Origin: Glycine soja
Lineage: Eukaryota; Streptophyta; Magnoliopsida; Fabales; Fabaceae
Assembly (NCBI RefSeq): GCF_004193775.1
Contig: NC_041005.1
Span: forward strand, 15,843,865 to 15,907,864
Length of the DNA stretch: 64,000 nt
Reading direction: 5' to 3'
Shown here: one piece after another, positions 1 through 32,034 of the stretch
How the letters are laid out: each line of letters begins with the position of its first letter
Position numbering within the stretch: position 1 is the first letter of the stretch
Position numbers and translations under genes: made by a program
Notes under the pieces: generated by a model
Database searches by the model: none
Seen by the model: the letters and a program-made list of their open reading frames with translations, nothing else
Told to the model about the DNA's origin: nothing

Positions 1-530
1 TGATTTTCCGCTTTATTTTACTAAAAGATGTCTTTTTGATTATTATATTATTTTTTACCTCTTTTTGATTTCCAACGTGGTTACGGCACGACCGAACGGT
101 CGGAATTTATTTTAACCGAAGTTAATGGATAATACAATTCAAACGTTCGGTGGAAATTTATTTTATTTTTAAGTTAAGCGAGAAATGACTTAAGTAAAAT
201 GGCTTAAGCACGTCAACAGGGGGTATAAAAAGTAAACAAAACGAGAATAAAAATGCACGAAACACAATGTGGACCACTACGGGCACATAGAATGAATCGA
301 AAAGCTTGGTTCGAGGTACTTACCCGTTGAAGATCGAAGAACGATGAAGAACGAATGAAGAACGTCGAAGAACGGTTGAAATCTTTGCGAAATTCCTCAC
401 GGAAAACGTTACGGAAACGTTTCGGAAGCGCCTCGGCTTAGATTTTCTTCACGGAAACAATTTTTCCAAGCAAATTCGAAAGAGAGAGAAGTGCCTAAGG
501 GGCTGAACCCCTTCCTTCTTCACTTCCTCC

Positions 531-540
531 CCTATTTATA
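531..540 (-). promoter_or_regulatory. Ogre LTR TATA box
   Basis: The minus strand reads TATAAATAGG, in the middle of the LTR and downstream of the TTACGGAA-rich U3 part. The same site is in copy C at 44,295-44,304. It probably sets the U3/R boundary; no start site can be read from sequence alone. Confidence 0.6.
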
Positions 541-734
541 GCAAAATAGGGGAGGTGGTTGCCGCCCAGCTCGCCCAGGCGAGCTCAGCTCGCCCAGGCG
601 AGCAGGGTTGCTTCCTCCAGAAGCAACCGCCTTCTGGAGGAATATTCCGGAGGGCCCAAGTGGGCCTGGGTGCTATTTGCACCCCCATTTTTACTAAGTA
701 CACCCCCTCTGCTGTTTTTTGGTGATTCTTTTTT

Positions 735-930
735 CGTAAAGTTACGGAAATTTACGAATTTCGTAACGATACTTGTTTTCTTTCCGTAATGTTACGGAAC
801 CTTGCGGATTACATAATCATCCCCTTTTTGACTTACGGAATGTTACGGAACCTCACTTAATTATGCAACGATGCTTCCATTTGATTTCCGGTGTGTCACG
901 GAAACTTACGGATTGTGCATCAATATTTTT
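735..930 (-). promoter_or_regulatory. TTACGGAA motif array in Ogre U3
   Basis: Variants of TTACGGAA (GTTACGGAA, CTTACGGAA, TCACGGAAA) recur at least six times between 735 and 930, 200-400 bp upstream of the TATA box on the minus strand. More copies lie downstream near 390-440. Spacing is irregular, so this is a motif cluster and not a simple tandem repeat. A regulatory role is inferred from its position. Confidence 0.4.
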
Positions 931-952
931 TTGGTTTTTCGGCATGTCCTGG

Positions 953-1480
953 AATTTCACAAATTGCCTAATGATGGGTGCCAAGCACCTCACGAGGACC
1001 AAAGAATGGTCGCACGTCATCGAGCAAAGGTCCCCGGACGAAATTAGGGTATGACAGTTGCCCCTCTTTACTTGTCTTTTATTGGAGATAAAAGGAAAGT
1101 AAAGATAAGACACTAATTTCGTTCCTCTCGATTTGACGAGAGTCGCAGGTGACCATAAAATCTCCACATGCAAATGACTTGTTGTTCCCAAAATTTCACA
1201 AATTGCCTAATGATGGGTGCCAAGCACCTCACAAGGACCAAAGAATGGTCGCTTGTCATCAAGCAAAGGTCCCCGAAAATCAGTGTATGACACTAATTTC
1301 GTTCCTCTCGGTTGACGAGAGTCACAGGTGACCATGACTTGTCGCTCCTAGAATTTCACAAATTGCCTAATGATGGATGCCAAGCACCTCACAAGGACCA
1401 AAGAATGGTCGCATGTCATCAAGCAAAGGTCCCCGAAAATCAGTGTATGACACTAATTTCGCTCCTCTCGGTTGACGAGA
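953..1480 (-). repeat. LTR-end sequence repeated inside the element
   Basis: The block containing CCTAATGATGGGTGCCAAGC followed by ACCAAAGAATGGTCGC occurs at the LTR edge (from about 953) and again at about 1,192 and 1,354, inside the element beyond the PPT. About 100-160 bp of LTR-terminal sequence plus PPT-adjacent sequence has therefore been duplicated into the 3' untranslated region. Confidence 0.75.
1057..1071 (-). other. Polypurine tract of Ogre copy A
   Basis: The minus strand reads GTAAAGAGGGGCAAC immediately before the LTR start TGTCATACCC. This is the expected place and composition for the plus-strand primer of an LTR retrotransposon. Confidence 0.7.
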
Positions 1481-1629
1481 GTCGCGAGCGACCATGAAAT
1501 TTCCGCATGTAAATGACTTGTTGTTCCCGGAGGAACAAAAGGTGCAGAAGACTATGTCAGCCTCTGCATGCTATCAAGCGTTCTGTCTTACAGATAGCAA
1601 AAGAATGTTTATACGGATAACCACTCGGG

Positions 1630-2148
1630 TATTTCCGCGTATCATCGGGCCCGCCGCCTCTGGATGATACAAGGGTGCAGAATGACCAAACTTGGTCTCT
1701 GCTTGTCATCGGGCCCGCCGCCTCTGGATGACAAAAGGGTGCGAATAACCGTAAGGTATCTCCGCGTATCATCGGGCCCGCCGCCTCTGGATGATACAAG
1801 GGTGCAGAATGACCAAACTTGGTCTCTGCTTGTCATCGGGCCCGCCGCCTCTGGATGACAAAAGGGTGCGAATAACCGTAAGGTATCTCCGCGTATCATC
1901 GGGCCCGCCGCCTCTGGATGATACAAGGGTGCAGAATGACCAAACTTGGTCTCTGCTTGTCATCGGGCCCGCCGCCTCTGGATGACAAAAGGGTGCGAAT
2001 AACCGTAAGGTATCTCCGCGTATCATCGGGCCCGCCGCCTCTGGATGATACAAGGGTGCAGAATGACCAAACTTGGTCTCTGCTTGTCATCGGGCCCGCC
2101 GCCTCTGGATGACAAATGGGTGCGAATAACCGTAAGGTATCTCCGCGG
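1630..2148 (-). repeat. 127-bp tandem repeat array in Ogre 3' UTR
   Basis: Units begin at 1,630, 1,757, 1,884 and 2,011 with a constant 127-bp period, about 4.1 copies. Each unit holds two copies of the GC-rich segment CATCGGGCCCGCCGCCTCTG about 63 bp apart, so the unit is itself a diverged dimer. Copies 2-4 are nearly identical, which means recent amplification. Tandem arrays in the 3' UTR are known for Ogre/Tat elements and have been proposed as seeds of satellite DNA. Open frames across the array come from the repeat and are not genes. Confidence 0.92.
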
Positions 2149-3969: not shown

Positions 3970-5220
3970 TCACGTGTCTCCACTCCCTCCCAAGAAGTCA
4001 AGCAAATCGGCCATCTCCTCATCCTCGTGGGCTTTTTCTCCATCGCCGGGAGCTTCTGGGGGTGCCTCTCCTGCTTGGGCCTCGGGCCAATCTCCGGGCC
4101 ATGCTACCTCTGCCCTGAACTGGTCTGGAGTAGGGCATGAAAAAGAAGCGAAGCCCTGGCTCTGCATGCTAAGGCTCATCTGGTACAGACAGTCATGGGT
4201 CCGTACATGTGCTCGGTGGTTGGCCGCCTGCTAGCGAACCAAATGCCGTAAATACTGCTCCATGTCAAATGCCCCAGCCTGGTCAGCCTGATGAGGTGGT
4301 GGTGGCGCGCCTGCGGCCTGTGGAGCATCACCCTGAGCCTGTCTTTGGGTACAGTACTTCTCAATAAAAGCCCGGGTGATGGGTGGCCGAATCACCTTGG
4401 TAGGTGCAACGGGGACTCCGAACGACTGGCAGAGTCCTGTGATCAGTGCGGGGAATCCCAGGGCCCTGTTGGACTTATCTGGGTCCAAAGGGTGCCTAGT
4501 GGGCGCCATACCTGCAAAAATATATATGGCATCAGCGATCAACTGAGCCACATGGATGCTCATCCGTGTCAGGATGGCGTACACCAGCTGGCACTTAGGC
4601 ATGGGGAGGTCGGAATTATGATCGGTGGGCAGGATGTTGCTGAGGAGCAACGTCATCCATATCTGGGTCAGGGTGGTCATGTTGGTGCGCATGATTCGCA
4701 CTCGCCTCCCTGCAGCAGTCCGAGCAAAATCCTGCCCCGGTATACATAGCAGCTGGGCGATGGCCTCCTCATCGAACCCATCAGACCGGTTCCTCCTCTG
4801 GCCATACTCGCATTCCTGGCCCTCTTCCAATACCATCGGATATCCCAGGAGCTGGCTGATAGCGTCGGCATCGAACGGGATCCACTGACCCCTAACCCAG
4901 GATCTCATGTCACGCACGCCCTCCTCTGTTGGCCAAGCATTGGCATAAAACTCAAGGACTATTTCTGGATCAAACTTGGCCATGGGAGTAACCAGTGGTG
5001 CCCACCGCCGGCGCCCTATTTCCTCCTGGAAATCAGTATACTCGTCGTCCCTGAGCTGGACGCGTCGCTCCCGGAGAAACGACCATCCCTTGATGGCTTC
5101 GAAGCGCTGCTGGTGTACAACGCTCCTAAAGCGGTGACTGTCGTACTCCGGGGCGGAACTAGTTCCTTCGGCCGCCTTGTCCTTCCTGGACCTCTTTGAG
5201 GCAAGCTTCCTCGGGGCCAT
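3970..5220 (-). pseudogene. Ogre additional 3' ORF (putative plant transposon protein class), copy A, one amber stop
   Basis: The frame opens at the ATG 5,218-5,220 (MAPRKLASKRSRK) and is the counterpart of the intact 416-codon ORF in copy C. In A a CAG codon of C (in LVRQQA) is TAG at 4,231-4,233, splitting the frame into about 329 and 69 codons. The N-terminus is basic. The middle (FYANAWP, WVRGQWIPF, LLGY, LLLSNILPTDH) resembles the uncharacterised plant domain annotated as putative plant transposon protein (memory, not a search). The C-terminus is acidic and proline/alanine-rich. It lies downstream of pol behind two introns. Function unknown. Confidence 0.8.
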
Positions 5221-5222
5221 TC

Positions 5223-6158
5223 CTGCGAAGGCAAACATTTGGAAAGTTAGTTTTACCAGTGGGACATTACTCTTAAAGCAAAAATGGCATGTAACCTCCT
5301 CCCATAAATACAAACATCAATGTAAATTTAGAGCAAGCTTATGCGCATATTTCCTTACAAACGTTCTCTTGCACAAGACATTCTATTAACCGAAAAAATG
5401 CACCCATATACAATCAAGGCAGCTTCGTTACCTAGATTATTTACACGTACTTCCAAGGTGTATTTGTTACTTACATCACACACATCTCCTTGGCTAAATC
5501 CACATACATGCATACTCAAAGCATTTTGGGGTACCAAAAATTGCACATGTACACATCTTGGTATTTCTAATACCTATACATACACAAACTTCATGATGAA
5601 TCTTGACTATCTACACAATAAGGTGCTACATTTCATGCTCTTTTCAAGTTTTTGCTACCTAAAGCCGCATGCAAATTCAAGTATATTCTCCTTTGCTGAC
5701 TAAAATTGTATTCAAATTAAAAGGTATACATTTTTTGGTAATGTATCTTCTTTACATAACATGCAACATATTTATGTATATTTTTTTGTGAGACATTTTG
5801 ACTACCAAAAATTATATGTACATACATCCAAGTATTTTGCTATCATACCCAAAGGGTAAATTGCCAAAGGTATTTTGCTACCTATTCTAAACCTACACAT
5901 TTATGATGAGCAAAATTCCTAACCACCTAGGCATAGGGAAAATATTGTAGCGTGGCCCATAGCTGATTGCTGGCAAAAAAAAAAGGGTAACTTTACCCAA
6001 TATGCACCTCCTTTTGTGCTCTTTTTGCATAAAATTTCAGTTTCTAGGACTAGGATATATGTGGGGCAATTACTCTAGCCTTTTTCGGGAATGAATACAT
6101 ATTCCAAAAAAATAGAAAATATGCGCAAACCAAAATACCCCATGGGTTGTCTCCTTAC
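5223..6158 (-). other. Intron 2 of Ogre 3' region (936 bp), present in A
   Basis: On the minus strand the segment begins GTAAGGAGAC (6,158 downward) and ends TTTGCCTTCGCAG (5,223). Copy C lacks exactly this segment: at 31,875/31,876 the flanks ...GTGACTTTT and GAATGGCCCC are joined directly. The precise GT-AG edges make it an intron, not a random deletion. The 3' splice site lies 2 nt before the aORF ATG. The segment is AT-rich with no long minus-strand ORF. Confidence 0.9.
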
Positions 6159-6316
6159 AAAAGTCACGCGCTAATGCCATTGAGGCATTTCACCGAACAC
6201 TTGGTGGGCGCGCGTTTAGGCATCAATAGCAAGAGAACGGGGACAATGTGGCATGTCCTATTGTTTCAAAATGCATTATAGGCCTAGGGCCATCTCATAC
6301 CAACCCCTAATTCAAC
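6159..6316 (-). other. Noncoding middle exon of the Ogre 3' transcript
   Basis: This 158-bp segment lies between the two introns in A and is retained in C (31,876-32,033), where it joins directly to both neighbours. It holds short upstream ATGs but no long frame, so it is probably 5' UTR of the aORF transcript. Confidence 0.75.
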
Positions 6317-6443
6317 CTAATCAAGCAAGAAAACAAATCAAAATTGCCCCATATATTTGAGCACACTCCCACAATTTAGAGCACAAAAAGGAGATCAAAA
6401 TACACCAATGAAAAGCTAGAAAGCTTAGGGATGGAATACTTAC
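6317..6443 (-). other. Intron 1 of Ogre 3' region (127 bp), present in A
   Basis: The minus strand starts with the consensus donor CAA|GTAAGT at 6,443 and ends ...TTGATTAG|G at 6,317. In copy C the flanks are fused exactly at 32,033/32,034. Copy B keeps a noisy version of the segment. Confidence 0.88.
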
Positions 6444-6644
6444 TTGTTGGTGATGAACAAAAGCGCAAAATGGAATTAAAAAATGCGAAAAAGGATGACC
6501 CTAGGGCTGCAAATTCGTCAATCCCGTGGGTATGGCTTTTTGAAAGGGGGGAAAAGAAGTTTTTGAATGTAAAAACGCCCCCCCTTTCGTCATTTTTATA
6601 ATTTGGTGCAGGGGTGGCTCGCCCAGGCGAGCTAACCTGCACTT

Positions 6645-7375: not shown

Positions 7376-10300
7376 CTAAGCATAATATTGTTTGACGACA
7401 TCAGAGTTCACGGGTGAAGGTAGCTCTTCGCCATCCATGTTGGTAAGCACCAGGGCTCCTCCGGAGAAAGCCCTCTTCACAACAAAAGGCCCTTCGTAGT
7501 TCGGGGCCCATTTCCCTCGGTGGTCCTTGACAGCATGGGACATTTTCTTTAGCACAAGGTCTCCCTCATGGAACTTGCGTAAGCGTACTTTCTTGTCGAA
7601 CGCGCTCTTCATTCTTTGCTGGTACAAGCGCCCATGACTCATGGCCGTTAAGCGCTTACCCTCAATGAGGTTGAGCTGATCGTAGCGTGTTTGAGCCCAC
7701 TCTGATTCCTTTAATCCGGATTCTGCCAAGATCCTTAATGACGGGACTTCTACCTCAAATGGTAACACCGCCTCCATCCCATATACCAATGAGAACGGCG
7801 TTGCCCCAGTTGACGTTCGCACTGAAGTCCGGTAACCGTGCAACGCGAATGGGAGCATCTCGTGCCAATCCTTGTATGACACGGTCATCTTTTGGATAAT
7901 CTTTTTGATATTCTTATTGGCTGCTTCCACGGCTCCATTCATCTTTGGCCGGTAGGGTGTGGAATTGTGATGCTGGATTTTAAACTCCTCGCACATTTCC
8001 CCCATCATCTTGTTATTCAGGTTGGTGCCGTTGTCCGTGATAATCTTTCTTGGCAAACCATATCGGCAGATGATCTCCTTCTTAATGAACCTGACCACCA
8101 CATTCCTCGTGACATTGGTATATGAAGCCGCCTCGACCCACTTGGTGAAATAATCTATTGCTACGAGGATGAAGCGATGACCATTCGAGGCCTTGGGCTC
8201 AATGGCCCCGATGACATCTATTCCCCACATGGAGAAAGGCCAAGGGGCGGACATGACATTCAGGGGATGCGGTGGGGCATTGACATTATCCGCGAATGCT
8301 TGACATTTGTGGCACCTCCTCACATGGACACAACAATCACTTTCCATGGTAAGCCAGTAATAACCTGCTCTTAAGATCTTCCTGGCCATAGCATGCCCGT
8401 TGGCGTGCGTTCCAAACGAGCCCTCATGGACTTCCTCGATCATGTGATTTGCCTCCTTGGCATCCACACATCGCAGGAGTGTCATGTCGTGATTTCTCTT
8501 ATACAGTGTGCCTCCGCTCATGAAGAAACTGGCTGCCAACCTCCTCAATGTCCTTTTATCGTTGTCGGCAATCTCTGGCGGGTATTCTTTGCTTACGACA
8601 TATCGCTTGATGTCGTAATACCAAGGCTTTCCGTCCCGTTCCTCTTCCACTTGGCAACAATGTGCGGGTTTGCCACGACACTGAAATTCAATGTAGGGTA
8701 GGTCCCCGTGCGGTGTTAGCTGGAACATAGATGCCAACGTAGCAAGTGCATCTGCCATTTGATTTTCCTCGCGGGGAACATGATGGAAGGAGATCTCATC
8801 GAAAGTCTTAGCCAATTCCTTGATGTAGGCTTTGTAGGGTATCAGCTTGGGATCTCTAGTTTCCCATTCCCCTCTCAGCTGATGGATTACCAACGCTGAG
8901 TCGCCGTACACCTTGAGTAGTTTGACATCGGAGTCAATTGCTGCCTGGACGGCTAGGGCACATGCTTCATATTCGGCCATGTTGTTGGTGCAGTCGAATC
9001 CTAGCCTGGCTGTGAAAGGTACACATTGATTGTCCGGAGAGATCAACACTGCCCCAACGCCATGACCTAGAATGTTTGACGCTCCGTCAAACCATACAGT
9101 CCATTTGTCCCGATCTTCGTCCAACTTTTCCTCGAACAAGGCCATGATGTCCTCATCCGGGAATTCCGGATGCATGGGCTGGTAGTCGTTAAGAGGCTGT
9201 TGGGCCAAATAATCTGCCAAAGCGCTTCCTTTTATCGCCTTTTGGGTGACGTAGACTATATCAAACTCAGATAGCAAGACTTGCCACCGGGCGATTCGTC
9301 CTGTGAGAGCTGGCTTTTCAAAGATGTACTTGACCGGGTCCATTTTGGATATCAACCAGGTAGTATGGCTCAGCATGTACTGCCTTAAGCGATGGGACGC
9401 CCATACTAAAGCACAACACGTTCTTTCGAGCAAGGAGTAATTCATCTCACAGGTCGTGAACTTCTTACTTAGGTAGTAAACAGCGCGCTCTTTCTTCCCG
9501 GATTCGTCATGTTGCCCCAGCATACACCCCATTGATTCGTCCAAGATTGTCATGTACAAAATGAGAGGCCTTCCAGGTACTGGTGGCATAAGCACGGGAG
9601 GATTCATTAGGCACTTTTTGATCCTTCCAAAAGCCTCTTGGCAATCCTCATTCCACCGATCAGTTTGGTTTTTGCGCAAGAGTTTAAACAACGGCTCACA
9701 AATGGCGGTGAGCTGCGATATGAATCTGGCAATATAATTCAAACGCCCCAGGAAACCTCGGACTTGCCTCTCTGTACGGGGTTCCGGCATCTCAAGGATA
9801 GCCTTCACTTTTTCGGGGTCTACCTCTATCCCTTTCTGGCTTACAACGAAACCAAGCAATTTCCCTGATTTGACCCCAAAGGTACACTTAGCGGGGTTCA
9901 ACCTTAATTGATATTTCTTAAGCCTTTCGAACAACTTCCGCAGGTTGACAAGGTGTTCTTCCTCAGATTTAGATTTAGCAATTATGTCGTCCACGTAGAC
10001 CTCGATCTCTTGATGCATCATATCATGGAACAAAGCTACCATGGCCCTTTGATAAGTTGCCCCGGCATTCTTGAGTCCAAAGGACATCACCTTGTAACAG
10101 AACGTTCCCCACAGGGTGACGAAAGTAGTCTTTTCCATATCCTCGGGCGCCATCTTTATCTGATTGTAACCAGAGAAACCGTCCATGAAGGAAAATAAAG
10201 CGAAATTGGCCGTGTTATCTACGAGGATATCGATGTGTGGTAAAGGAAAATTGTCCTTGGGACTGGCCCGATTCAGGTCCCGATAATCTACACACATTCG

Positions 10301-10759
10301 TACTTTCCCATCTTTTTTAGGAACTGGTACGATGTTGGCAACCCATTCTGGATACCGAGCGACGGCCAGAAATCCAGCGTCAAATTGCTTCTTCACTTCT
10401 TCTTTTATCTTCAAGGATGTTTCGGGCTTCATCCTCCTCAATTTCTGTTTTACCGGGGAACACCCGGGATTTAGAGGTAATCGGTGCTGCACAATGTCAG
10501 AACTCAAACCGGGCATATCTTGGTATGACCAAGCAAAGATGTCTTGGTAGTCTTTTAGCAGGATTATTAATTCTTCACGGATAGGTGCGGTAATGCCTGT
10601 ACCTATCTTTACTTCCCTCTTTCCACTGCCAATTCCTAAGTCTACTAGCTCTGTTTCTTCTTGATGAGGCCCCATTTCTTGGTCCTCATGGGCGACCATT
10701 CTTTCTAGTTCCGAAGGAAGTCCCACATCCTCATCTCCTTCATCTTCCGTTTGATTCAT
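7376..10759 (-). CDS. pol: Ogre pol: reverse transcriptase, two RNase H domains, integrase (copy A)
   Basis: An open frame of 1,127 codons. RT spans about residues 60-380, with LPHIDILVD, FMDGFSGYNQI and the active site YVDD at 255-258. A Ty3-type RNase H region follows (about 398-515). A second RNase H of archaeal type lies at about 553-680 with candidate catalytic D558, E596, D620 and D670. Integrase has an H-H-C-C finger (about 778-819) and the D848, D909, E945 triad. The frame ends in QYYA with no chromodomain, as in the Tat/Ogre clade. It makes and integrates the DNA copy. It begins just after a candidate 3' splice site at 10,830. It appears full length and undamaged. Confidence 0.95.
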   Translation of the reverse strand: MNQTEDEGDEDVGLPSELERMVAHEDQEMGPHQEETELVDLGIGSGKREVKIGTGITAPIREELIILLKDYQDIFAWSYQDMPGLSSDIVQHRLPLNPGCSPVKQKLRRMKPETSLKIKEEVKKQFDAGFLAVARYPEWVANIVPVPKKDGKVRMCVDYRDLNRASPKDNFPLPHIDILVDNTANFALFSFMDGFSGYNQIKMAPEDMEKTTFVTLWGTFCYKVMSFGLKNAGATYQRAMVALFHDMMHQEIEVYVDDIIAKSKSEEEHLVNLRKLFERLKKYQLRLNPAKCTFGVKSGKLLGFVVSQKGIEVDPEKVKAILEMPEPRTERQVRGFLGRLNYIARFISQLTAICEPLFKLLRKNQTDRWNEDCQEAFGRIKKCLMNPPVLMPPVPGRPLILYMTILDESMGCMLGQHDESGKKERAVYYLSKKFTTCEMNYSLLERTCCALVWASHRLRQYMLSHTTWLISKMDPVKYIFEKPALTGRIARWQVLLSEFDIVYVTQKAIKGSALADYLAQQPLNDYQPMHPEFPDEDIMALFEEKLDEDRDKWTVWFDGASNILGHGVGAVLISPDNQCVPFTARLGFDCTNNMAEYEACALAVQAAIDSDVKLLKVYGDSALVIHQLRGEWETRDPKLIPYKAYIKELAKTFDEISFHHVPREENQMADALATLASMFQLTPHGDLPYIEFQCRGKPAHCCQVEEERDGKPWYYDIKRYVVSKEYPPEIADNDKRTLRRLAASFFMSGGTLYKRNHDMTLLRCVDAKEANHMIEEVHEGSFGTHANGHAMARKILRAGYYWLTMESDCCVHVRRCHKCQAFADNVNAPPHPLNVMSAPWPFSMWGIDVIGAIEPKASNGHRFILVAIDYFTKWVEAASYTNVTRNVVVRFIKKEIICRYGLPRKIITDNGTNLNNKMMGEMCEEFKIQHHNSTPYRPKMNGAVEAANKNIKKIIQKMTVSYKDWHEMLPFALHGYRTSVRTSTGATPFSLVYGMEAVLPFEVEVPSLRILAESGLKESEWAQTRYDQLNLIEGKRLTAMSHGRLYQQRMKSAFDKKVRLRKFHEGDLVLKKMSHAVKDHRGKWAPNYEGPFVVKRAFSGGALVLTNMDGEELPSPVNSDVVKQYYA

Positions 10760-11002
10760 TTCTTGCTCGAAGTTGATAGACGGGTCCCAGGTATTAGTAC
10801 CTTCGGGGGACTCGTCATCGAATCTGCCATTTTAGAAAAAGAAGTAAACATGCAAATGAATGAGAATGGGTAGAGACCAGGAACAGATGAAGAAAGATCC
10901 TTGTATTATAAATTCAAACACAAAAGACACAAAGCCTTAACAAAATGAAAACTCTAAAGCCTAGGCCCAACTATAGAGCTTTTAAAACCGTAAAGGTTTA
11001 CA
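10760..11002 (-). other. pro-pol junction with candidate Ogre intron
   Basis: On the minus strand a pyrimidine-rich stretch (TTTACTTCTTTTTCTAAAAT) leads into GGCAG followed by ATTCGATGACGAG, which is in frame with pol, so 10,830 is a credible 3' splice site. Upstream of it the pol frame meets a TAA. The donor is uncertain: GTAAAC near 10,996 or GTACGA near 11,079. Ogre elements are known to carry an intron between protease and RT. Both A and C retain this segment. Confidence 0.5.
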
Positions 11003-14827: not shown

Positions 14828-16693
14828 CTAACGATTTCTAATTATGTGGGCCATTAAGTCTATCATATGCTGACAATAGCCGAGAAGCCCATGAATCTCT
14901 TCGGGGGCGGAGTAGGTGTCTGCCATCGCCTTGGCCTTGGCTAACAATCGGGGAAGTTCTTGACTCCCGTTCAAGGTAAGAGCAAACCGATCCATCCACA
15001 TGGTTGCCTCTTGGTGTAAAGAGTCGATCACCCTTCCTCTAGCCTCTTTTTCCGCGTATACTTGGGCATACTCATCCGCGATTCTATGCTCGTGGGCCGT
15101 GGCTAGACCTAACTCTTCTTGGTACTTGGCGATGATAGCTAACATGTTGGTCTCTGTCTCGCATAAACGCTGAGACAAGCTTCTTTTGGACCTTGAACAA
15201 GCAATCAACTCCTCTTTCAGAACCATGCTATGTGCTCGCGACTGGTCCCTTTCTTCCCTTCGCAACTTGAGTTCATTATTGCTACCCCATAGAGCTCCGC
15301 GAAATTTGTTCCGGCCATACTCTTCCTTGCGAGCCCTCTTGGTCTCTTGTTCAAGGGCTCTTGCGGTAATTGCATTCTCTTCCCGTAACCCGGCACACTC
15401 CTTCCGAACGTGTGTAGCAGCCAACTTGAACTTCTCCTTGGCGAGTTTTGCCTTTCCTAACTCGCTTTTGAGAGCTTGGACTTCTTCGTCCTCTTCCGGT
15501 GCTTCAAAATTCTCTTCGCTGACGACTTTTAACTTGGCGAGCCAATCTAAACCTCGTATGCGAACTTTCAGCCATTCGTGGTACCCACCAATGATGCCAT
15601 TACGAATGCCTCTAAGCTCTTGATCTTTCCTTAACGGGGTTTCCCATGCCTTATGGATTCTTTGTATAGTCTTGGAATTTTGTGCGCCGAGATCCCTCAC
15701 AAGGAAAGGAGACATGCTTTCTTCCGTCGGTGCTCCCCTCATGGGGTACCCTAGTTGTCTTATAGCGAGCGTGGGATTGTAATTAATACAACCCCTCGTT
15801 CCTACCAGCGGAATGTTTGGGTATCTTCCACATGAGAAAAGGACTCCTTCTTTTCCTTCCTTCCATCGGGGGAACCAACTGATTGTTCTACCTCCTATCC
15901 CGGCCAAGAGCTGGTCCCAATCCATTCTCCTCTTTTCAGTACACGAGCGATGGCTCAGGAGCGGACATGGATGTCTTGTGTCTTGTTGGAACAAGTGTGA
16001 AACCAACCAAACACAGAGGGCGGGTAAGCAACAGATGATCCGTGCGCTACTCTTCTCGCACCTTCGGTCAAATGTGTCAAATAGATCTGCCAAGACAGCT
16101 ACCACCGGACTTTCCTTGCTATGGTGGTAGGCAAGGAAAGCGTCGATTGCTGCTAGGTCTACCAAACCATCCACGTTTGGAAAGAGGACGACCCCAAAAA
16201 TTAGCAAAGCTAACACATCCATAAACGGGACCCAGTCTCCTTGATTGGCCATACCCCTCGCCTTGTCTTCTAGGTACTTCTGTGGTAGGCCCGCTATGCC
16301 GTTCCGAGTCTGTTTTATGCGGTCCAAACCTCTTGCTGAATCCTTGACCACAGTTGCAATTCTGCTCAAAGAGGGGAGACATCCGGAGGAAAGATATGGT
16401 TTTCTTCCCCCGAGAGGACATCCTAGAATTTCTTCAAATTCTTCAATGGTTGGTACTAATTGGAAGTCTCCGAATGTGAAGCATCTCAAAGGCTGGTCGT
16501 AGTATTGGGTGAGTGATGCAATGGCTTCTATGGACACCTCTGCTATGGTCAACTCTAAGATCTTTCCGTAAGTCTTGCGGAAGGCTTGCATTTGGAGGGG
16601 TTCCATCAACCGCCCTAATTCCTTGATGCTGGTGGTATCTAGGCTTTTGACCTTGACTTGGTAGAACCTCTTGCCGGTTTGATTTGTTCCCAT
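14828..16693 (-). CDS. Ogre ORF1 protein, unknown function (copy A)
   Basis: An open frame of about 621 codons from the ATG at 16,691-16,693 (MGTNQTGKRF); the frame upstream has no ATG. The N-terminal half (about residues 25-330) is globular and resembles the uncharacterised plant domain DUF7745 (from memory). The C-terminal half (about 400-560) is rich in K, E and R with heptad-like spacing and probably forms a coiled coil. An ORF before gag is diagnostic of Ogre elements; its role is unknown. Copy C has an amber codon where this copy has CAG (DQP). Confidence 0.85.
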   Translation of the reverse strand: MGTNQTGKRFYQVKVKSLDTTSIKELGRLMEPLQMQAFRKTYGKILELTIAEVSIEAIASLTQYYDQPLRCFTFGDFQLVPTIEEFEEILGCPLGGRKPYLSSGCLPSLSRIATVVKDSARGLDRIKQTRNGIAGLPQKYLEDKARGMANQGDWVPFMDVLALLIFGVVLFPNVDGLVDLAAIDAFLAYHHSKESPVVAVLADLFDTFDRRCEKSSARIICCLPALCVWLVSHLFQQDTRHPCPLLSHRSCTEKRRMDWDQLLAGIGGRTISWFPRWKEGKEGVLFSCGRYPNIPLVGTRGCINYNPTLAIRQLGYPMRGAPTEESMSPFLVRDLGAQNSKTIQRIHKAWETPLRKDQELRGIRNGIIGGYHEWLKVRIRGLDWLAKLKVVSEENFEAPEEDEEVQALKSELGKAKLAKEKFKLAATHVRKECAGLREENAITARALEQETKRARKEEYGRNKFRGALWGSNNELKLRREERDQSRAHSMVLKEELIACSRSKRSLSQRLCETETNMLAIIAKYQEELGLATAHEHRIADEYAQVYAEKEARGRVIDSLHQEATMWMDRFALTLNGSQELPRLLAKAKAMADTYSAPEEIHGLLGYCQHMIDLMAHIIRNR

Positions 16694-17531
16694 GCTTACT
16701 AAAGTGAGACAAAAGCTGGTGCAAATCAAAACTCCGATATCTCATGGGTGGGATGGATGAATGCATGATGGAATGCATATGACACAGATGCAATCTAGGA
16801 ATGCGGGGGTCCGGGGAATTTGTCCCCTTCTTAGATACGACGTCTAGGGGTAGCGAAATGCCCCAACGCACGTTTTTAAGAAGGCGACACGGACCCTCCG
16901 TTGGTTTGTTTACAGTAGGGATCAAGACAGAACCCATATGCAATGCCTATGCAAAAGACACAATGCGGGAATGTGCACAGTATGACAATATTTACCGAAC
17001 ATAAGCAAAAGGGTATATGATACTCATGCATGGCAGTGTGAAAAATGGCACGCAGCGTGTTTGCTTCGTGCCCCTATTTAAGGGACCTATAAGGGAGAGA
17101 ACTAACTAGGCTTTTAGCAATAACCCCCAAGGTAGTTATATCTCTCTTGATGGTTTCTAGAGGTATCATCCCCTTTGAAGAACATATTGTAGCAGTAGGG
17201 ACTACTAGCAACAATAGGTTTTCAAAGAGAAAAGCTCTAGATGAGGGTTCACTGTAATCAAGCAAGTCGGAGACCTAGCATGATCACAGATTCACCTCCA
17301 CTCCTTATGCTCCATGAACCCGGGTATAGGGCCCTTTTTCACTCACAGTGTGTGCAAATAGTGTTGGTGTTTGTGTGCATAAAATGAATAAATATTTACT
17401 TCATGCATACATTTAAAACGCACTAAAGCAACAAAGAGTTTATACACAAGAACATAATGAAAGGAAACCAACAAAGGGGTAAGTCACGGTAAAACATTGC
17501 ACAAAATTAAATGGCCTAACTCTCTAAAAAC
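16694..17531 (-). other. Ogre 5' leader (copy A)
   Basis: About 840 bp between PBS and ORF1, nearly identical in copy C. No long ORF on the minus strand. It may hold packaging or translation signals, but none can be named from sequence. Confidence 0.6.
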
Positions 17532-17553: not shown

Positions 17554-18590
17554 TGTCGCAACCTACCCTTCGGCGGGAGGGCGACGCGTGACTCGCGGGA
17601 TGCGTGTTCCACGAAAGGAATACGCGCGGAGTCGCCACCAACGTTTATTTGAGGAAAACGTCGGAAAAACCGGAAAGACGCGATCTACGAACTTTTTAAG
17701 TGAAAGGTTCGGGAGTTGTATTTACGCACGGGGAAGGTATTAGCACCCCACACGCCCGTCCCAAGGGACGGCAGCCTTTAATCAAATGTGCAAACATGAC
17801 TTTGATTTTTTTTTTGTTCCCTTTTATGTTCTTATATCCTTTATACCCTTTTTATATTTTTCCTTTTTTGTGGTCGACAAGGGCGTTTCCCTTTGCTCCT
17901 ACGTATTCCTCAATTTGGGATGAGAAATCAGACCTACGTAGTTCTTTTTTATCAAGTGATTCTTTTTTACTTAAGGGTGATCATTTTAAGGCGTTGGACC
18001 TTAAAAATGATCCATTTTACTTAGTGAGAATTGAATGACAACTTCAAAAGCCTATTTTTGTGGACGAGCTTGACTAGGCGAATTGATTTTAGCCTTTAGT
18101 TTCACTTTAGTTATTAATCAATTCGATTAAGAATGAGAAATCCCAAAGAGAAAACGTCCGATGATTTTCCGCTTTATTTTACTAAAAGATGTCTTTTTGT
18201 TATTATATTATTTTTTACCTCTTTTTGATTTCCAACGTGGTTACGGCACGACCGAACGGTCGGAATTTATTTTAACCGAAGTTAATGGATAATACAATTC
18301 AAACGTTCGGTGGAAATTTATTTTATTTTTAAGTTAAGCGAGAAATGACTTAGTAAATGGCTTAAGCACGTCAACAGGGGGTATAAAAAGTAAACAAAAC
18401 GAGAATAAAAATGCACGAAACACAATGTGGACCACACGGGACATAGAATGAATCGAAAGCTTGGTTGAGGTACTTACCCGTTGAAGATCGAAGAACGATG
18501 AAGAACGAATGAAGAACGTCGAAGAACGGTTGAAACCTTGCGAGATTCCTCACGGAAAACGTTACGGAAACGTTTCGGAAGCGCCTCGCG
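17554..18590 (-). repeat. 5' LTR of Ogre copy A (truncated)
   Basis: It starts TGTCGCAACC, matching the complete LTR of copy C from 43,145, and follows it for about 1,040 bp. At about 18,590 it stops after GGAAGCGCCTCG and the sequence switches to element interior equivalent to A 5,224. From about 17,940 on, small indels relative to the other LTR copies become frequent, so the noisy zone starts inside this LTR. Confidence 0.82.
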
Positions 18591-19919
18591 TGCGAAGGCA
18601 AACATTTGGAAATTAGTTTACCAGCTGGGACATTACTCTTAAAAGCAAAAATGGCATTAACCCCTCCCATAATAACTTCAATGTAATTTTAGAGGCAAGC
18701 TAGCGCATTATTTCCTTACAAACGTTCTCTTGCACAGACTTTCTATAAACCGAAAAATGCTCCCATATTACAATCATGGCAGCTTCGTTACCTAGATTAT
18801 TTAAGTTTACTTCAAGTTTATTTGTTACTTACATCACACCATCTCCTTGGCTAAATCCACATTACATGCATACTCCAAAGCATTTTGTACCATTTGACAT
18901 TGTACACATCTTGGTATTTCTAATACATACATTACACAATACTTTCATGATGAATCTTGACTATCTACACAATAGTGCTCATTTCTGCTCTTCAAGTTTT
19001 GCTACCTAAAAGCCGCATGCATTCAGATATTCTCCTTTGCTGACAAAATTGTATTCAATTAAAAGGTATAGCATTTTTTGGTAATGTATCTTCTTTACAT
19101 AACATGCAACATATTTTGTATAGTTTTTTTGTGAGACATTTTGACTACCAAATTATGACACATCCAAGATTTTGCTATCATACCCAAAGGGTAAATGCCA
19201 AAGGGGTATTTTTTGCTACTTCTACCTACCCATTTTGGCATGAGCAAATCATAACCGCTAGGCATAGGGAAAATATTGTGCGTGGCCCATAGCTGATTGC
19301 TGCAAAAAAAAAGGGTAACTTTCCATATGCACCTCCTTTTGTGGCTCTTTTGCATTAAAATTTCAGGTTTCTGACTGGATATATGTGGGGCAATTTACTC
19401 TACCTTTTTCGGGATTGATACATATTCCCAAAAAAATAGAAATATGCGCAAACCAAATACCCCATGGGTTTCCCTACAAAATCAGCGCTAATGCCTTGAG
19501 GATTTTACGAACACTTGGTGGCGCGCGTTTAGGCTTCAATAGCAAGAGAACGGGGAAATGTGGCTTCCTATTGTTTCAAATTCATTTAGGCCTAGGCCAT
19601 CTCACAACCCAATCACTAATCAAGCAGAAAACAACACAAATTGCCCCACTATATTTGAAGACACTCCACACTTAGAGCACAAGGACATCAAAATACACAA
19701 TGAAAGTAGAAAGCTTAGGGATGGATACTTACTTGTTGGTGATGAACAAAAGCGCAAAAAGAATCAAAAATGCGAAAAAGGATGACCCTAGGGCTGCAAA
19801 TTCGTCATCCGGGGGTATGGCTTTTGAAAGGGGAAGAAGTTTTTGAATGTAAAACGCCCCCCTTTTCGTCATTTTATAAATTTGGTGCAGGGGTGGCTCG
19901 CCCAGCGAGGCTAACCTGC

Positions 19920-19952
<33 letters not shown>

Positions 19953-20636
19953 AGGAACATTAACCATGTCCCCTCCCTCTCATGGATAGCATTTTTGCCT
20001 AACTTGAACTTACTTAGGTTAGGAATTAGGCGTTGATTACTTTATTTATTATTACTCTTTTGCCTTTTTAAAACAAACAATGATAAAAGAAAGCTGCAAA
20101 ATACAAAGGATACGGGGCTCCTTGAGCGACATTCCCTGCTTGTTTCGCACAGAGAAGCAGACGATCGGTCGGTCGTGACCCCATCCCCGCTTGCGTTCTC
20201 CTTAGTACCTGCAAGTAATAAACAACCAGGTATGCCATCTTGGCCGCATCATTACCCTACCTTGATTGGTTTCTGCCGTTCATGTTTTGTCTTCACTCCA
20301 GAAGGTAGCCCAAGGTGATCCTGCCCCTGTTTTACCCAACAAATATACATGCGTATTGCGTATGCGTTGCATGGATGTTTTCAAACGCAGAAAAATTTAG
20401 GGAAGTTGGTTCAGGTTCATTCTAATTAAGCGCTTGGGGATCCGTGAACTGAGCGGAAGGGCTCAGGCGATCACAAATTAAGCAAGTGTGTAAACTAGTG
20501 AGGACTAAAAGCCTCAAATCCATGTTCATTTCTTTGAAAATCGTAACAAGAGATACCACGGACGGGAAATCCCTGGGGGAATCTAGAAAACGCATAAGAT
20601 AGAGAACATGCAGCGACATCCTTAATTGCCCAGCTT
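18591..20636 (-). other. Copy B 3' region with unspliced introns
   Basis: Corresponds to A 5,224-7,375. Both introns are retained (GTAAG donor sides recognisable near 19,734 and 19,468), together with a T run of about 30 at 19,921-19,951. The aORF itself is absent. No gene. Confidence 0.65.
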
Positions 20637-23600
20637 CTAAGCATAATATTGTTTGACGACATCAGAGTTCACGGGTGAAGGTAGCTCTTCGCCATCCATG
20701 TTGGTAAGCACCAGGGGCTCCTCCGGAAAAGCCCTCTTCACAACAAAAGCCCTTCGTAGTTCGGGCCATTTCCTCGATGGTCCTTGACGCATGGGACATT
20801 TTCTTTTAGCACAAGGTCTCCCTCATGGAACTTGCGTAAGCGTACTTTCTTGTCGACGCTCTTCATTCTTTGCTGGTATAAGCGCCCATGACTCATGGCC
20901 GTTAGCGCTTACCCTCAATGAGGTTGAGCTGATCGTAGCGTGTTGAGCCCACTCTGATTCCTTTAATCCGGATTCTGCCAAGATCCTTAATGACGGACTT
21001 CTACCTCCAAGTAACACCGCTTCCATCCCATATACATGAGAACGGCGTTGCCCCAGTGACGTTCGCACTGAAGTTCGGTAACCGTGTGAACGCGAATGAG
21101 CATCTCGCCAATCTTGTATGACACGGTCATCTTTGGATAATCTTTTTGATATTCTTATTGGCTGCTTCCACTGCTTCCATTCATCTTTGCACGGTTTAGG
21201 CGGTGTGGAATTTGATTGCTGGATCTTAAACTCCTCGCACATTTCTGCCTCATCTATTATTCAGGTTGGTGCCGTTGTCCGTGATAATCTTTCTTGGCAA
21301 CCATATCGCAGATGATCTCCTTCTTAATGAACTGACCACCACATTCCTCGCATTGTATATTTGAAGCCGCCTCGACCACTTGTGAAATATTCTATCTGCT
21401 ACGAGATGAAGCGATGACCATTCGAGGCCTTGGCTCAATGGCCCGATGACATCTATTCCCCACATGGAGAAAGGCCAAGGGGGACATTGACATTCAGGAT
21501 GTGGTGGGGCATTGCATTTATCCGCGAATGCTTGACATTTGTGGCACCTTCCTCACATGGACACAACAATCATTTCCATGGTAAGCCGATAACTGCTCTT
21601 AAGATCTTCCTGGCCATAGCCATCCGCAGTTGGCGTGTCTTCAAAACGAGCCCTCATGGACTTCTCTGATCATGTGATTTGCCTCCTTGGCATCCACATC
21701 GCAGGAGTGTCCATTGTCGTGATTCTCTTATACAGTGTGCCTCCGCTCATGAAGAAACTGGCTGCCAACCTCCTCAATGTCCTTTTATCGTTGTCAGGCA
21801 ATCTCTGAGCGGGTATTCTTTGCTTACGACATATCGCTTGATTCGTTAATCCAAGGCTTTCCGTCCCGTTCCTCTTTCACTTGGCAACAATGTGCGGGTT
21901 TTGCCACGACACTGAAATTCAATGTAGGGTAGGTCCCCGTGCAGGTGTTTAGCTGGACATAGATGCCAAGTAGCAAGGCATCGCCATTTGATTTCCTCGC
22001 GGGAACATGATGGAAGAGATCTCATCGGAAGTCTTAGCCAATTCCTTGATGTAGGCTTTGTAGAGGTATGTCAGCTTGGGATCTTAGTTTCCCATTCCCT
22101 CTCAGCTGTGGATACCAACGCGAGTGCCGTACCACCTTTGGAGTAGTTTGACATCGGCGTCAATTGCTTGCCTGGACGGCTAGGGCACATGCTTCATATT
22201 CGGCCATGTTGTTGGTGCAGTCGAATCCAGTGCGTGTGAAAGGTACACATTGATTGTCCGGAGAGATCAACACTGCCCCCAACGCATGACCTAAGAATGT
22301 TGACGCTCCGTCAACCATACAGTCCATTTGTCCCGATCTTCGTCAACTTCTTCTACGAACAAGCCATGATGTCCTATCCGGAATTCCGGATGCATGGGCT
22401 TGGTAAGTCGTAAGAGGCTGTGGCCAAATAATCTGCCAAAGCGCTTCCTTTTATCGCCTTTTGGGTGACGTAGACTATATCAAACTCAGATAGCAAGACT
22501 TGCCACCGGGCGATTCGTCCTGTGAGAGTGGCTTTTCAAGATGTACTTGTAACCGGTCCATTTTGGATATCAAACCAGGTAGTATGAGCTCAGCATGTAC
22601 TGCCTTAGAGCGATGGGACGCCCATACTATAAGCACCACACGTTCTTCGAGCCAAGGAGTAATCATCTTCACAGGTCGTGAACTTCTATCTTAGGTGTAA
22701 GACAGCGCGCTCTTTCTTCCCGGATTCGTATAGTGTTGCCCCAGCATACACCCCATTGACTCGATCCAAGATTGTCATGTACAAAATGAGAGGCCTTCCA
22801 GGTACTGTGGCATAATGCAGACGGAGGATTCATTAGGCACTTTTTGATCCTATCCAAAGCCTCTTGGCAATCTCTCATTCCACCGATCAGTTTGGTTTTT
22901 TGCGCAAGAGTTTTAAACAACGGTCTCACAAATGGCGGTGAGCTCTGCGATATGATCTGCAATATAATTCAAGCGCCCCAGAGAACCTCGACTTGCCTCT
23001 CTTACGGGGTTCTCGGCATTCAAGGATAGCTTCATTTTTTCGGGGTCTACCTCTATCCCTTTCTGGCTTACAACGAAACCAAGCATTTCCCTGATTTGAC
23101 CCAACAGGTACACTTAGCGGGGTTCAACCTTAATTGATATTTCTTAAGCCTTTGGACAACTTCCGCGGTTGACAAGGTGTTCTTCCTCAGATTTAGATTT
23201 AGCAATTATGTCGTCCACGTAGACTCGATTCTTGATGCAGTCATATCATGGAACAAAGCTACATGGCCCTGTTGATAAGTTGCCCGGCTTCTTGAGTCCA
23301 AAAGGAATTCACTATGTAACAGAACGTTCCCCACAGTGTGACGAAAGTAGTCTTTTCCATATCCTCGGGCGCCTTTATCTGATTTGTAACCAGAGAAACG
23401 TCCATGAAGGAAAATAAAGCGAAATTGCGTGTTATCTACGAGGATATCGATGTGTGGTACAAGGAAAATTGTCCTTGGGACTGGCCCATTTCCCGTATAT
23501 CTACACCATTCGTACTTTCCCATCTTTTTTAGACTGGTACGATGTGTGGCAACCCATTCTGGATATCAGCGACGGCCAGAAATCCCAGCGTCAATTTTCT

Positions 23601-23941
23601 TCACTTCTTCTTCTTCAAGGACGTTTCGGGTTTCATCCTCCTCAATTCTGTTTTACGGGAACACGGATTTGAGGCAATCCGGTGACTGCCAATGTCAGAA
23701 CTCAACGGGCTCTATCTTGTTGACACAGCAAAAAGGATTTTTGGTGTTTAGTAGGATTATTATCTTCACGATAGGTGCGGTAATGCCTGTCCTTTCTTTA
23801 CATTCCCTCTTTCCACTGCCAATTCCTAGTCTATAGCTCTGTTTCTTTTGATGAGGCCCATTTCTTGTCCTCATGGGCGACCATTCTTTAGTTCTCGAAG
23901 GAAGTCCCACATCCTATCTCCTTCATCTTCGTTTGGATCAT
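20637..23941 (-). pseudogene. Ogre pol remnant (copy B)
   Basis: Aligns end to end with the intact pol of copies A and C, including the QYYA end and the MNQTED start region, but is broken into many short frames by 1-bp indels. Conserved blocks such as TDNGTN of integrase and CVDYRD of RT can be found only piecewise. Confidence 0.8.
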
Positions 23942-24179
23942 TTCTTGCTCGAAGTTGATAGACGGTGCCCAGGTATTAGTACCTTCGGGGGACTCGTCAT
24001 CGAATCTGCCTTTAGAAAAGAAGTAAACATGCAAATGAATGGAATGGGTAGAGACCAGAACAGATGAAGAAAGATCCTTGTATTATAAATTCAAACACAA
24101 GACACAAAGCCTTACAAAAAGAAAACTCTAAAGCCTAGGCCCAACTATGAGCTTTTAAAACCGTAAAAGTTTACATTAT

Positions 24180-27100
24180 GCTTGTTGCGTAAATGCCGGG
24201 GCGTTCCTCCACTCGCCAATTTCCCAGCTGGAAATTCAGGAGGGCATGGTCGTCCAAATCCAAAGTACTCGGATATCATTTCAGCATATCGCGAACCTTG
24301 ACCTTTGTCTCCCGACCCCACTTATAAAGCTTCTACTTTGGTGGCAGGCGGGCTTCCTCACTTCTTGTCTCCAACGCGACTTTGACCACTTGCTTCCTTC
24401 CCGCATGCTTCTTTTCATGTCGCCTGAGTGGGCTTATAGCCTAAACCATACTTCCCACGATTTCCTTGGCGTATTTATCAGGCTAGTTATGCCGCCAGTT
24501 GTTTTTCCTAAACCATCCCGGGTTTAAACGTTCCCCACATAACCTCGGGCCATCATTACGCTGCATCGACAGACAAGGTTGCCCAAAGAGGGGAGTCCAC
24601 GAGGAAATGCTGACCACTCAAAAGACTGAAAGCAGTTTCTAACGATTTCTTTGCGGCTTCCACATAAGCATGGAGGAATGGGCAGCTTACCAAGATATCT
24701 TCCTCGCCTGACACGATGACCAGTGCCCCTCCACTACGAACTTCGCTTTTGTGGAGGTAGAGGCACAGACTCCCACTGAGTGGATCCAAGGGCGCCCCAA
24801 AGGCACTGTAGGGGGGTTAATATCCATTATTTGGAAGGTGACTTGACAGGTGTGCTGAGGCCTATTTGTACTGGAGATCGATCTCTCCCCTAACCTCTCG
24901 GCGAGTGCCGTCGAAGGCCCGAACCACCATTGAACTTGGTTTAATTGTGGAAACATTGAATTGGTAACTTTCCAAAAGTGCTCTTAGGCATCTCACGTTT
25001 AAACTGGAACCATTATCGATGAGTACCTGGCACGATATGGTTCCATAACTTGAACTGACACGTGTAAGCTTATTATTGCCTTCTCTCCCCTCGGGGGATT
25101 TCTTCTTCGGCGAAGGCAAGATAGTTGTTGGCAGTGATTTGTTGACCAGCCCTCCGAAACCTCTACGAGATATCTTGGGCCACGTGAGCCTCGTTCTGAC
25201 TTTTACTAGCAGAGCCCGATGAGGCTCGGAGCTCATAAGTAACTTGCAGCGGACCCTAGCCGGGGTTTGTTGAGCTGTTCGATAACCTTGAATTCAGCTC
25301 TGCTGAATTATCGCGAAGGAACTCGCTGGCTTCCTCTGCGACACCTCCTTTCTACCATCTTTTCTCGGGTCCCTTTGCTGGAATATCTTTATTCGAAACG
25401 TGGGGTGCTTCGCCATCTTTGTTCCTCCACCACTTTTCCTTTTCCTTTGCCGTCGCGGGGTTGGACGGTAGGTCCGGAGGTGCGAACACACGACCACTAC
25501 GGGTCACACCACTCAGCCCGTGATATTTGTTACTTTAGCGACAGCGAAGCTGACGTCAGTTGACTCTTCTTCCTTCTTCCCGCGAGTGTATATCTCCAGG
25601 GACCGCGTGGGACTATTTGATACGCGGAAAGGAACAGTTTGGCCATTATAGGGTGCCCGGGCTTTTGCGAGGCTGCACTTTTAGTGAAGTATATCACAGG
25701 GTTTGGGCTTCGCAACACCAGCTCCCCTCCGTAGATTGCATGCATATATGCTGCTCTTCTTTTCCTTCAATGCGACTTCTATCGACCTGGTCTATCATCC
25801 GTCTTGTAACAATCCTCTACTTCCAAACACGTTCCATGTCATGCATTCCGCGGATGTAGCAGACAGGAACTCCTCTTACACCCACATGGGGATTACACCT
25901 CCCTTTTGTAGGGCCTCCAAAGATAAACCTCCTAGGGTTGCCACATCTCTAAAGGTTTAGACCTGTGGGCCTATCGGATTCACTGCATTAACTGCTCCCC
26001 CATGATTGGCGAGCGGGTTGGCTTACATTCGGGCCGATCCTCTTGGAAAGTCAGCCATCCGGCATCCATAGATGTTGACCTTGTATTTAAGGGCCAAGCA
26101 TTTTTCGATGGAATGCCCCGGGCACCCCATGGTACTTGCAGTTGCATTAGGGTCATCCACTTCGGGAAAGGGTTCGGACCCTCGCGGATTACCACGGCCA
26201 AATGATTGGCGATGAGGGATAGGTGCAAGTCTTCGTACGTCATTGGGAGCGGGTGAATTCCGGCAAGGCTCGGAGGGAAGTTCCTTGCGGTGTTGGAGAT
26301 TACCGGCGCTGAGTCGCTGTTCGGAGTTGAAACTTGGGGAGCTTCCTCTGTGTGGGTGCCTTAGGCTGCACGGGTGTTTGAACTAGGCGTTCCCAGCATG
26401 AGCGGAAGCTGGGTGATGTTGCGCGTACTGATGGGTACCATGAGGGTTTGCTGGGTTTGACCATGCGGGTGTTGAAGAGACGGCATGGCATCTCCTTCTT
26501 TCTGTTGCCCCTGTGCCCCGATTCTTTTGCGATTCACGTTTGTGGGAGAACGTAATTCAAACTCCTCTCTTCAATCAACCTCCGATTCTTTCCCCGGCAA
26601 ACCAGATCCGCAAGCTGGAAGGCATGTTACCCACTAGCTTCTCATAGTAGAACACTGGCAGAGTGTCTACCTCATGGTGATCATCTCTCTTTCAACCATG
26701 GGGAGCTATTGTTGCGCAAATTCCTCCATCGCTGCGCTATTCTTTAATGTTTGCCCCTTTTCTTGAACATATTCTGCTAGTTGAGTACGGTCAGGAGCCA
26801 TATTAGAATTGTACTGATTACTGCCTAGGAAGGCGGTAATCGATCCTTTCCAAGACGGATACGGAAGCTTCAAATTGTGTACCACACTACACGAGTCCGG
26901 CCAGCTATCCTGAAGAAGTGTATCAACAGCTTTTCATCTTTTAGAGATGGGCGCCATCTTACGGCAGTACATTTTGAGATGGTTTTGGACAAGTCGTCCC
27001 TTTATACTTGTCGAAGTCCGCACTTTGAACTTCGGGGAATAACACATCGGGTACTAACAAAGATCGTCATGTCTGCAAACGATGTCCCAAATCCTTCACC

Positions 27101-27643: not shown

Positions 27644-27865
27644 CTTCTAGATTTGGACTGGTGCGATCATGGGATCCCTTGCGGCGCGTTTAGTTATGGT
27701 GTTTTTTCCTAAAAAACCAACGGTGAGGATGGGTAAGAAGAAAATGCATGGAGGGATGAGATGTAGGATGATTGATTTGCACACTTTTTGGAGTAGAACA
27801 TGGGCCAACTCATTTTATTTCAAAAGAGTCTTCTAGTCAGTCTGAAGAGAACCATACAAGTTTCC

Positions 27866-31874: not shown

Positions 31875-31876
31875 CA
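31875..31876 (-). other. Exon-exon junction (intron 2 removed)
   Basis: The minus strand reads ...GTGACTTTT|GAATGGCC. In copy A a 936-bp GTAAGG...GCAG segment sits at this exact point. Confidence 0.9.
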
Positions 31877-32032: not shown

Positions 32033-32034
32033 CT
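32033..32034 (-). other. Exon-exon junction (intron 1 removed)
   Basis: The minus strand reads ...CACCAACAA|GTTGAATT. In copy A a 127-bp GTAAGT...TTAG segment sits at this exact point. Confidence 0.88.

Follow-up and report, generated by a model that had tools for sequence, protein, structure and literature searches.

Exact removal of segments bounded by splice sites from genomic copies of an Ogre-type retrotransposon in Glycine soja

Among the copies of one Ogre-type retrotransposon family in the genome of Glycine soja, segments bounded by splice sites have been removed exactly, at four types of junction and in many places, and the copies that lack them are nested among unspliced copies. The gag-pol intron has been removed without the leader intron of the 3' gene, and the reverse is also found. 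In all likelihood these copies arose because incompletely spliced RNA of this Gmr9/GmOgre-type element, spliced in the leader and in gag-pol, is at times packaged, reverse transcribed and integrated.

The element and the two segments missing from copy C

The window, which is the whole stretch of 64,000 nucleotides that was analysed, holds on its minus strand copies A (~1-18588) and C (29724-44802), which are members of one family. Their order is ORF1 (DUF7745), gag, protease, gag-pol intron, RT/RNase H/additional RNase H/integrase, aORF (PF20167), minisatellites and LTR. The features are as follows.

1..1056, minus strand: 3' LTR of A, which runs past the window edge; 5' end TGTCAT at 1056
1628..2147, no strand: minisatellite array between aORF and 3' LTR, periods of 127 bp and 64 bp (TRF)
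4231..5220, minus strand: aORF of copy A, PF20167, 329 aa, shorter than that of C (Pfam 4.7e-44)
5223..6158, minus strand: intron 2 of copy A, 936 nt, GTAAGG...CTTCGCAG, absent from C
6159..6316, minus strand: exon 2, 158 nt, non-coding, apparently optional (skipped at 35 spliced places)
6317..6443, minus strand: intron 1 of copy A, 127 nt, GTAAGT...TTAG, absent from C
6594..6600, minus strand: TATA box of a putative internal aORF promoter, the only TATAWAW upstream of the aORF in 1-17500
6618..6631, minus strand: GC-rich palindrome, core of a 17-mer common with the LTR, part of a 19-bp unit
7376..10831, minus strand: pol exon 2 of A, with RT, RNase H, additional RNase H and integrase (Pfam)
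10824..11001, minus strand: gag-pol intron of copy A, 178 nt, GTAAAC...GGCAG, 45% T (in-frame join)
14828..16741, minus strand: ORF1, DUF7745 (PF24924), 5' of the gag ORF (Pfam 4.7e-105)
18590..29725, minus strand: noisy copy B, both introns present; probably an unpolished read patch
30623..31873, minus strand: aORF of copy C, PF20167, 416 aa, spliced leader directly before it (Pfam)
31875..31876, minus strand: exon2/aORF splice junction of C
32033..32034, minus strand: exon1/exon2 splice junction of C
36406..36583, minus strand: gag-pol intron kept in copy C, 178 nt (in-frame join)
43765..44802, minus strand: 5' LTR of the element including C, as far as aligned with 1-1056

Three traits of Ogre elements (Tat clade of Ty3/gypsy) are present: an extra ORF upstream of gag; an intron from PROT to RT, here a 178-nt GT-AG segment whose removal joins the frames and for which spliced DNA copies exist; and an additional RNase H between RH and INT, which is also a feature of Retand elements (PMC6317226). 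The domain order in pol exon 2 is RT_RNaseH (residues 419-523), RVT_3 (591-699) and integrase (789-962) by Pfam. The traits of Gmr9/GmOgre are found as well, namely the Glycine host and the order ORF1, gag-pol exon 1, intron, exon 2, ORF3, minisatellites, and the order given in the figure legend of the Gmr9/GmOgre paper is identical to that of A and C (PMC3305785). Minisatellite families A-E of Gmr9/GmOgre are reported there with units of 26, 38, 37, 105 and 43 bp; compared by period length only, the array periods in the window correspond to 64 = 26+38 and 127 = 26+38+26+37.

The aORF has PF20167 (Transposase_32) as its sole Pfam match, which is not an env-type family. Its 15 best protein matches have 90-99% identity, and 12 of these are from Glycine max or G. 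soja (90-96%). No relative was found among PDB sequences (best E 0.36) or in IMG/VR, and an AlphaFold model of the protein from a 26-row alignment had a mean pLDDT of 33.7. The residue before the start methionine is E in 26 of the 144 proteins listed, and the sequence further upstream is varied. One of these 26 (P0004) is an intron read-through, and most of the others are named gene models seemingly spliced onto the same acceptor; such models are predictions and carry little weight as evidence for it. A different LTR element at 44803-50626, with ~800-bp LTRs and a copia-type gag plus zinc knuckle, contains a PF20167-like domain (46065-46949; 44.4 bits against a cut-off of 45); the accessory domain of the aORF would accordingly occur in another superfamily too. 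A plus-strand ORF at 51177-52322 also encodes a copia-type gag (PF14223).

Positions 6317-6443 (127 bp) and 5223-6158 (936 bp) of copy A are missing from copy C to the base, at 32033/32034 and 31875/31876 respectively. On the coding strand both segments read GTAAG...AG (GTAAGT...TTAG and GTAAGG...GCAG). Intron 1 is 46% T, and intron 2 carries a branch-point-like CTAAC at -28, ends in CTTCGCAG and stops 2 nt before the aORF ATG (5220). The two junctions have three and two equivalent placements, one of each being GT-AG. Edges of the form GTAAG..AG at an equivalent placement occur in 4 of all 15374 windows of 127 bp in the element and in 5 of all 14565 windows of 936 bp, the true intron being among them in both cases, and the product of the two gives a joint chance of ~9e-8 (about once in 10^7) for a random pair of deletions with such edges. 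The original prediction that two segments with splice-consensus edges are precisely absent from C, and that random deletions would not both have such edges, is thus confirmed. Copy B, which is noisy, also carries both segments.

The quality of the assembly bears on how the window is read. Copy B and the tail of A from ~17 kb (~17000-29725) are noisy and rich in deletions and short indels, and in B transitions are about equal in number to transversions; the region looks like an unpolished long-read gap fill, and the possibility that B is a diverged family member was rejected on its substitution pattern and its excess of deletions. The low edge of B coincides with the family's intron-2 acceptor. 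Between copies A and C there are 2 substitutions over 12.0-15.5 kb and none in 1037 aligned LTR bases (1-1056 and 43765-44802), whereas their divergence over 3.1-12 kb is ~1.3-1.5%. This mosaic is either a template-switch mosaic or an assembly chimera, the latter being probable. The block in which C differs from A (~29724-37550) has few indels relative to A and holds both junctions as well as the gag-pol intron.

Splice forms across the genome

Searches were made in the window's own assembly (1,013,641,977 bases), in which four splice forms are present as DNA copies. With at most two mismatches, the spliced exon1-exon2 junction was found in two places, copy C and C5:11975960, with none for a reversed-pattern control, and the exon2-aORF junction was found in the same two copies, which have therefore lost both introns. 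Under the same limit, unspliced donor 1 was found in 516 + 475 = 991 places (control 0). The commonest spliced form joins donor 1 directly to acceptor 2 (exon1-exon3) and was found in 35 places by an exact pattern with one optional base (control 0), 28 with the acceptor flank GAAATGG and 7 with GAATGG. Twenty of these 35 loci were read, and all are flanked by exon 1 and the aORF, lack any match to the two introns and to exon 2, and are 84-99% identical to A upstream of exon 1.

A spliced query of 358 bp that was not tied to the junction word gave 2646 candidates, of which 40 were scored: 2 are fully spliced, 10 lack intron 2 and 28 have no contiguous exon2-aORF match. All 12 spliced candidates have a precise edge, although they represent only two groups of related copies. 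Eight of the 28 were fetched (L059-L066), and intron 2 is present in all eight. In the 10 loci that lack intron 2 alone, which include C1:22441375 and C70:17729, exon 2 is joined to the aORF by an exact junction in its GAAATG variant and intron 1 is kept. A pattern search for this variant (at most two mismatches) returned exactly those 10 loci, which also fall, within the mismatch limit, among the 991 unspliced-donor places.

The copy on contig C5 has in common with C 23 of 26 A-C differences in the aORF block and 12 of 12 at the start of pol, and because of the former it is taken as the sister of C. One splicing event followed by later copying would explain both. Within the aORF block the C5 copy carries 40 private differences and numerous indels as well, in part probably sequencing noise, and next to it lie a gap of 4095 N and a deletion or misjoin in pol. 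Both fully spliced copies adjoin assembly gaps or noise.

The structure of the leader was compared in the first 30 donor-1 places listed (L017-L046, contigs C1-C2), which are not a random sample. Acceptor 1 is AG in 11 of these, GG in 16 and AA in 3, acceptor 2 is CAG in all 29 that could be measured, and donor 2 has no GT in 3 of the 30. Among other unspliced loci, L066 is without the CAG of acceptor 2. From the acceptor-1 counts, therefore, the two leader introns look like a subfamily trait, and a single intron of ~1.2 kb from donor 1 to acceptor 2 looks like the wider state. The AG acceptor of A-like copies is best described as making the 158-nt exon optional, in agreement with 35 direct joins of donor 1 to acceptor 2 versus 2 copies with exon 2 included. 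The earlier claim of two 5' introns accordingly seems to hold in the subfamily of copy A and not family-wide, since acceptor 1 is not AG in 19 of the 30 copies.

Removal of the 178 nt between protease and RT (44-45% T in A and C) joins the two frames, and the spliced junction predicted from the reading frame was matched in 18 places with at most three mismatches (6 exact; control 0), these being matches to the junction only. For the match at C4:35305977, an unspliced donor 1 is found 4406 bp away, at C4:35310383. From the coordinates of A, a spacing of ~4383 would be expected with the loss of the gag-pol intron alone and ~4561 with that intron retained, so that the observed spacing is close to that expected of one element. 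C retains the gag-pol intron, as do four of the five other leader-spliced copies fetched (two exon1-exon3 and two intron-2-less), the fifth stretch having missed the region. None of the 18 gag-pol-spliced places is near a listed leader-spliced junction in the coordinate lists, and fewer than one would be expected if the two were independent. The original suggestion that splicing was selective thus describes C and four further spliced copies and fails for the family, in which the gag-pol intron appears not always to be spared.

A tree was built from 71 rows that include 20 of the 35 exon1-exon3 copies, with eight rows left out for long branches or missing or misjoined sequence (L002, L003, L010, L025, L033, L038, L045 and L063). 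The exon1-exon3 label changes 13 times on this tree (bootstrap range 12-13, at least 9 forced by supported branches), 12 times when only unspliced and exon1-exon3 rows are counted, and again 13 times on a quick tree of all 79 rows. The 20 exon1-exon3 copies are scattered over the tree, and for 8 of them the distance to the closest of 40 unspliced copies is shorter than that to every other exon1-exon3 copy. The label shows clustering too, as 1 of 500 shuffles gave so few changes. These 9-13 changes are no clean count of events, because parsimony counts gains and losses alike and homologous template switching could move a spliced segment between lineages; the exon1-exon3 form would nevertheless represent several to many events. 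Copy C falls among unspliced A-like copies. Moderate support (89% ultrafast bootstrap, 65% SH-aLRT) unites the ten intron-2-less copies, which most simply form one clade, probably the product of a second splicing event followed by amplification.

Taken across the genome, the 35 + 10 + 2 leader-spliced and 18 gag-pol-spliced places indicate that spliced RNA was reverse transcribed repeatedly in this genome. That C descends from a spliced, reverse-transcribed RNA is supported for its 3' part, and much better so because of this whole-genome comparison, in which members with and without the segments were both found.

Origin of the spliced copies

In the mechanism that we favor, the 3' gene of the element, the aORF, lies in sense orientation, and a spliceosomal intron would break up its leader, running from donor 1 to an acceptor 2 that sits 2-3 nt before the aORF ATG. 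In the subfamily of copy A, an AG acceptor would split this intron into 127 + 936 nt around the optional exon. Splicing of the element RNA would be incomplete in the leader as well as in gag-pol, and its spliced forms would now and then be packaged, reverse transcribed and integrated. The RNA that is spliced may be the genomic RNA driven by the LTR or an aORF mRNA packaged with it, and the aORF would be translated from a transcript with the spliced leader, possibly one made from its own TATA promoter. The route of packaging is part of what we infer, and spliced descendants may transpose by themselves or in trans.

Alternatively, the RNA genome could have been unspliced, with reverse transcriptase jumping to a co-packaged spliced aORF mRNA made from an internal TATA promoter. 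This is a variant of the mechanism above, in that spliced RNA would still be the source and only the 3' region would be intronless, and we consider it possible but fairly unlikely. The TATA box and LTR-shared palindrome ~155 nt upstream of donor 1 are consistent with such a jump, as are the retention of the gag-pol intron in C and in four of five further leader-spliced copies fetched (the fifth stretch missed it), the mosaic of A and C, and the separation of the 18 gag-pol-spliced places from leader-spliced junctions. The last, however, is expected anyway if the two splicings are independent and ~4% of copies are leader-spliced, the divergence between A and C does not point clearly to another parent at the aORF leader, and the gag-pol-spliced copies cannot come from an aORF mRNA.

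The internal promoter on which this alternative depends would be a serious alternative to the LTR for the aORF transcript. On the sense strand of 1-17500, TATAWAW has six matches, that at 6600 and five more at 4526, 3812, 3735, 3317 and 540, the last of which is that of the LTR. Of 59 distinct upstream regions, 40 have TATAWA at a distance of 148-162 nt from donor 1, and 17 of the other 19 have TATAAG there. The exact 17-mer in common with the LTR promoter gives an alignment score of 34, the highest of 300 shuffles being 32. The palindrome core is found at five places in the window, and the palindrome is present in at least one copy, and in up to five, in 57 of the 59 upstream regions. A 19-bp palindromic unit of variable copy number precedes both the LTR TATA and the aORF TATA (570-602, 6618-6631, 32206 and 44334). 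The promoter stays putative because common descent alone could keep both TATA box and palindrome. The LTR of A also has a strong splice donor, CGG/GTAAGT, at position 323 downstream of its TATA; if this donor were used, the primer-binding site would probably be removed, so that the RNA could serve as messenger only.

The aORF may be expressed from a spliced leader transcript, as originally proposed. A further proposal, which we hold to be rather doubtful, is that the 3' gene is a self-contained transcription unit, equipped with its own TATA box and the palindrome also found before the LTR TATA, whose leader intron helps to mark RNA as messenger and not as genome, the spliced copies being leaks and mostly replicative dead ends. 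The tally of such leaks would be 37 DNA copies joined at donor 1 versus 991 unspliced places. If the proposal were true, the introns would be kept because most spliced copies are replicative dead ends.

Gain of the segments as introns in A and B, with C ancestral and intronless, is extremely improbable. The window by itself leaves the direction open, but 991 unspliced places are set against few spliced ones, the spliced forms sit among unspliced ones in the trees, and the same edges bound losses of 127, 936 and ~1220 nt; in addition, the amino acids that precede the start methionine of the protein P0100 (64% identity to the query) are compatible with a T-rich tract plus CAG in the underlying DNA. 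Losses by DNA-level deletion or gene conversion have next to no probability: recombination is common in repeats, but the chance for the pair in C is ~9e-8 with only 1-2 nt of junction ambiguity, the same sites are used in three combinations, and the 12 losses found without the junction word are all exact, though from only two groups of related copies. An assembly artefact or cDNA contamination, for which the noisy patch and probable chimera in the window and the 4095-N gap at C5 might speak, is hardly credible given that spliced junctions lie on many long contigs as well as several short ones and that sequence matching the element flanks the junction on either side in the 20 exon1-exon3 loci read.

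Relation to known elements

Ogre elements of Pisum and Medicago have a gag-pol intron between PROT and RT that part of the transcripts lose by splicing (Neumann 2003 and Steinbauerova 2008, as cited in PMC6317226), and the 178-nt intron described here is at the same place. Unlike what is described for those elements, a second spliced region is present here, in the leader of the 3' ORF, and spliced DNA copies exist for both. Gmr9/GmOgre is reported at more than 3,200 copies in soybean, and the main text of that paper uses the word intron once, for gag-pol, with no leader intron before ORF3 (PMC3305785). Searches of the open-access literature turned up neither introns ahead of an Ogre 3' ORF nor DNA copies of spliced Ogre RNA.

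Splicing for a 3' ORF is described for Bagy-2 (Vicient 2001, as cited in PMC7264820 and PMC3735527), where it likewise serves a sense ORF. That ORF is env-like, whereas the one here belongs to PF20167 and has an intron confined to the 3' region. Gene23 of Grande (Gomez-Orte 2013, as cited in PMC7264820) is also a 3' accessory gene with its own promoter, a promoter that is only putative here, but it is antisense, while the aORF is sense and has leader introns. An accessory protein from a spliced LTR-element mRNA is described for Cer1/CERV of C. elegans (PMC10309623), a likeness of arrangement. BARE1 offers a parallel in a plant LTR element, its splicing setting messenger RNA apart from genome RNA, yet DNA copies of the spliced RNA could not be amplified from barley, and here they are numerous (PMC3735527). 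It has been argued that elements need to avoid integration of spliced RNA (PMC3735527), and retroviral particles are able to take up spliced RNA (PMC3486793).

LTR elements that contain introns should lose them whenever spliced RNA is replicated, and the genome described here preserves a record of such leakage that can be counted, sorted by splice form and dated from divergence. The ten-copy intron-2-less group and the pair of C and the C5 copy suggest that some spliced descendants can still multiply. For a 3' accessory gene in a retrotransposon family of a crop genus, the record gives evidence of splice sites at the level of DNA, and it makes testable how messenger and genome RNA stay apart and whether spliced descendants multiply.
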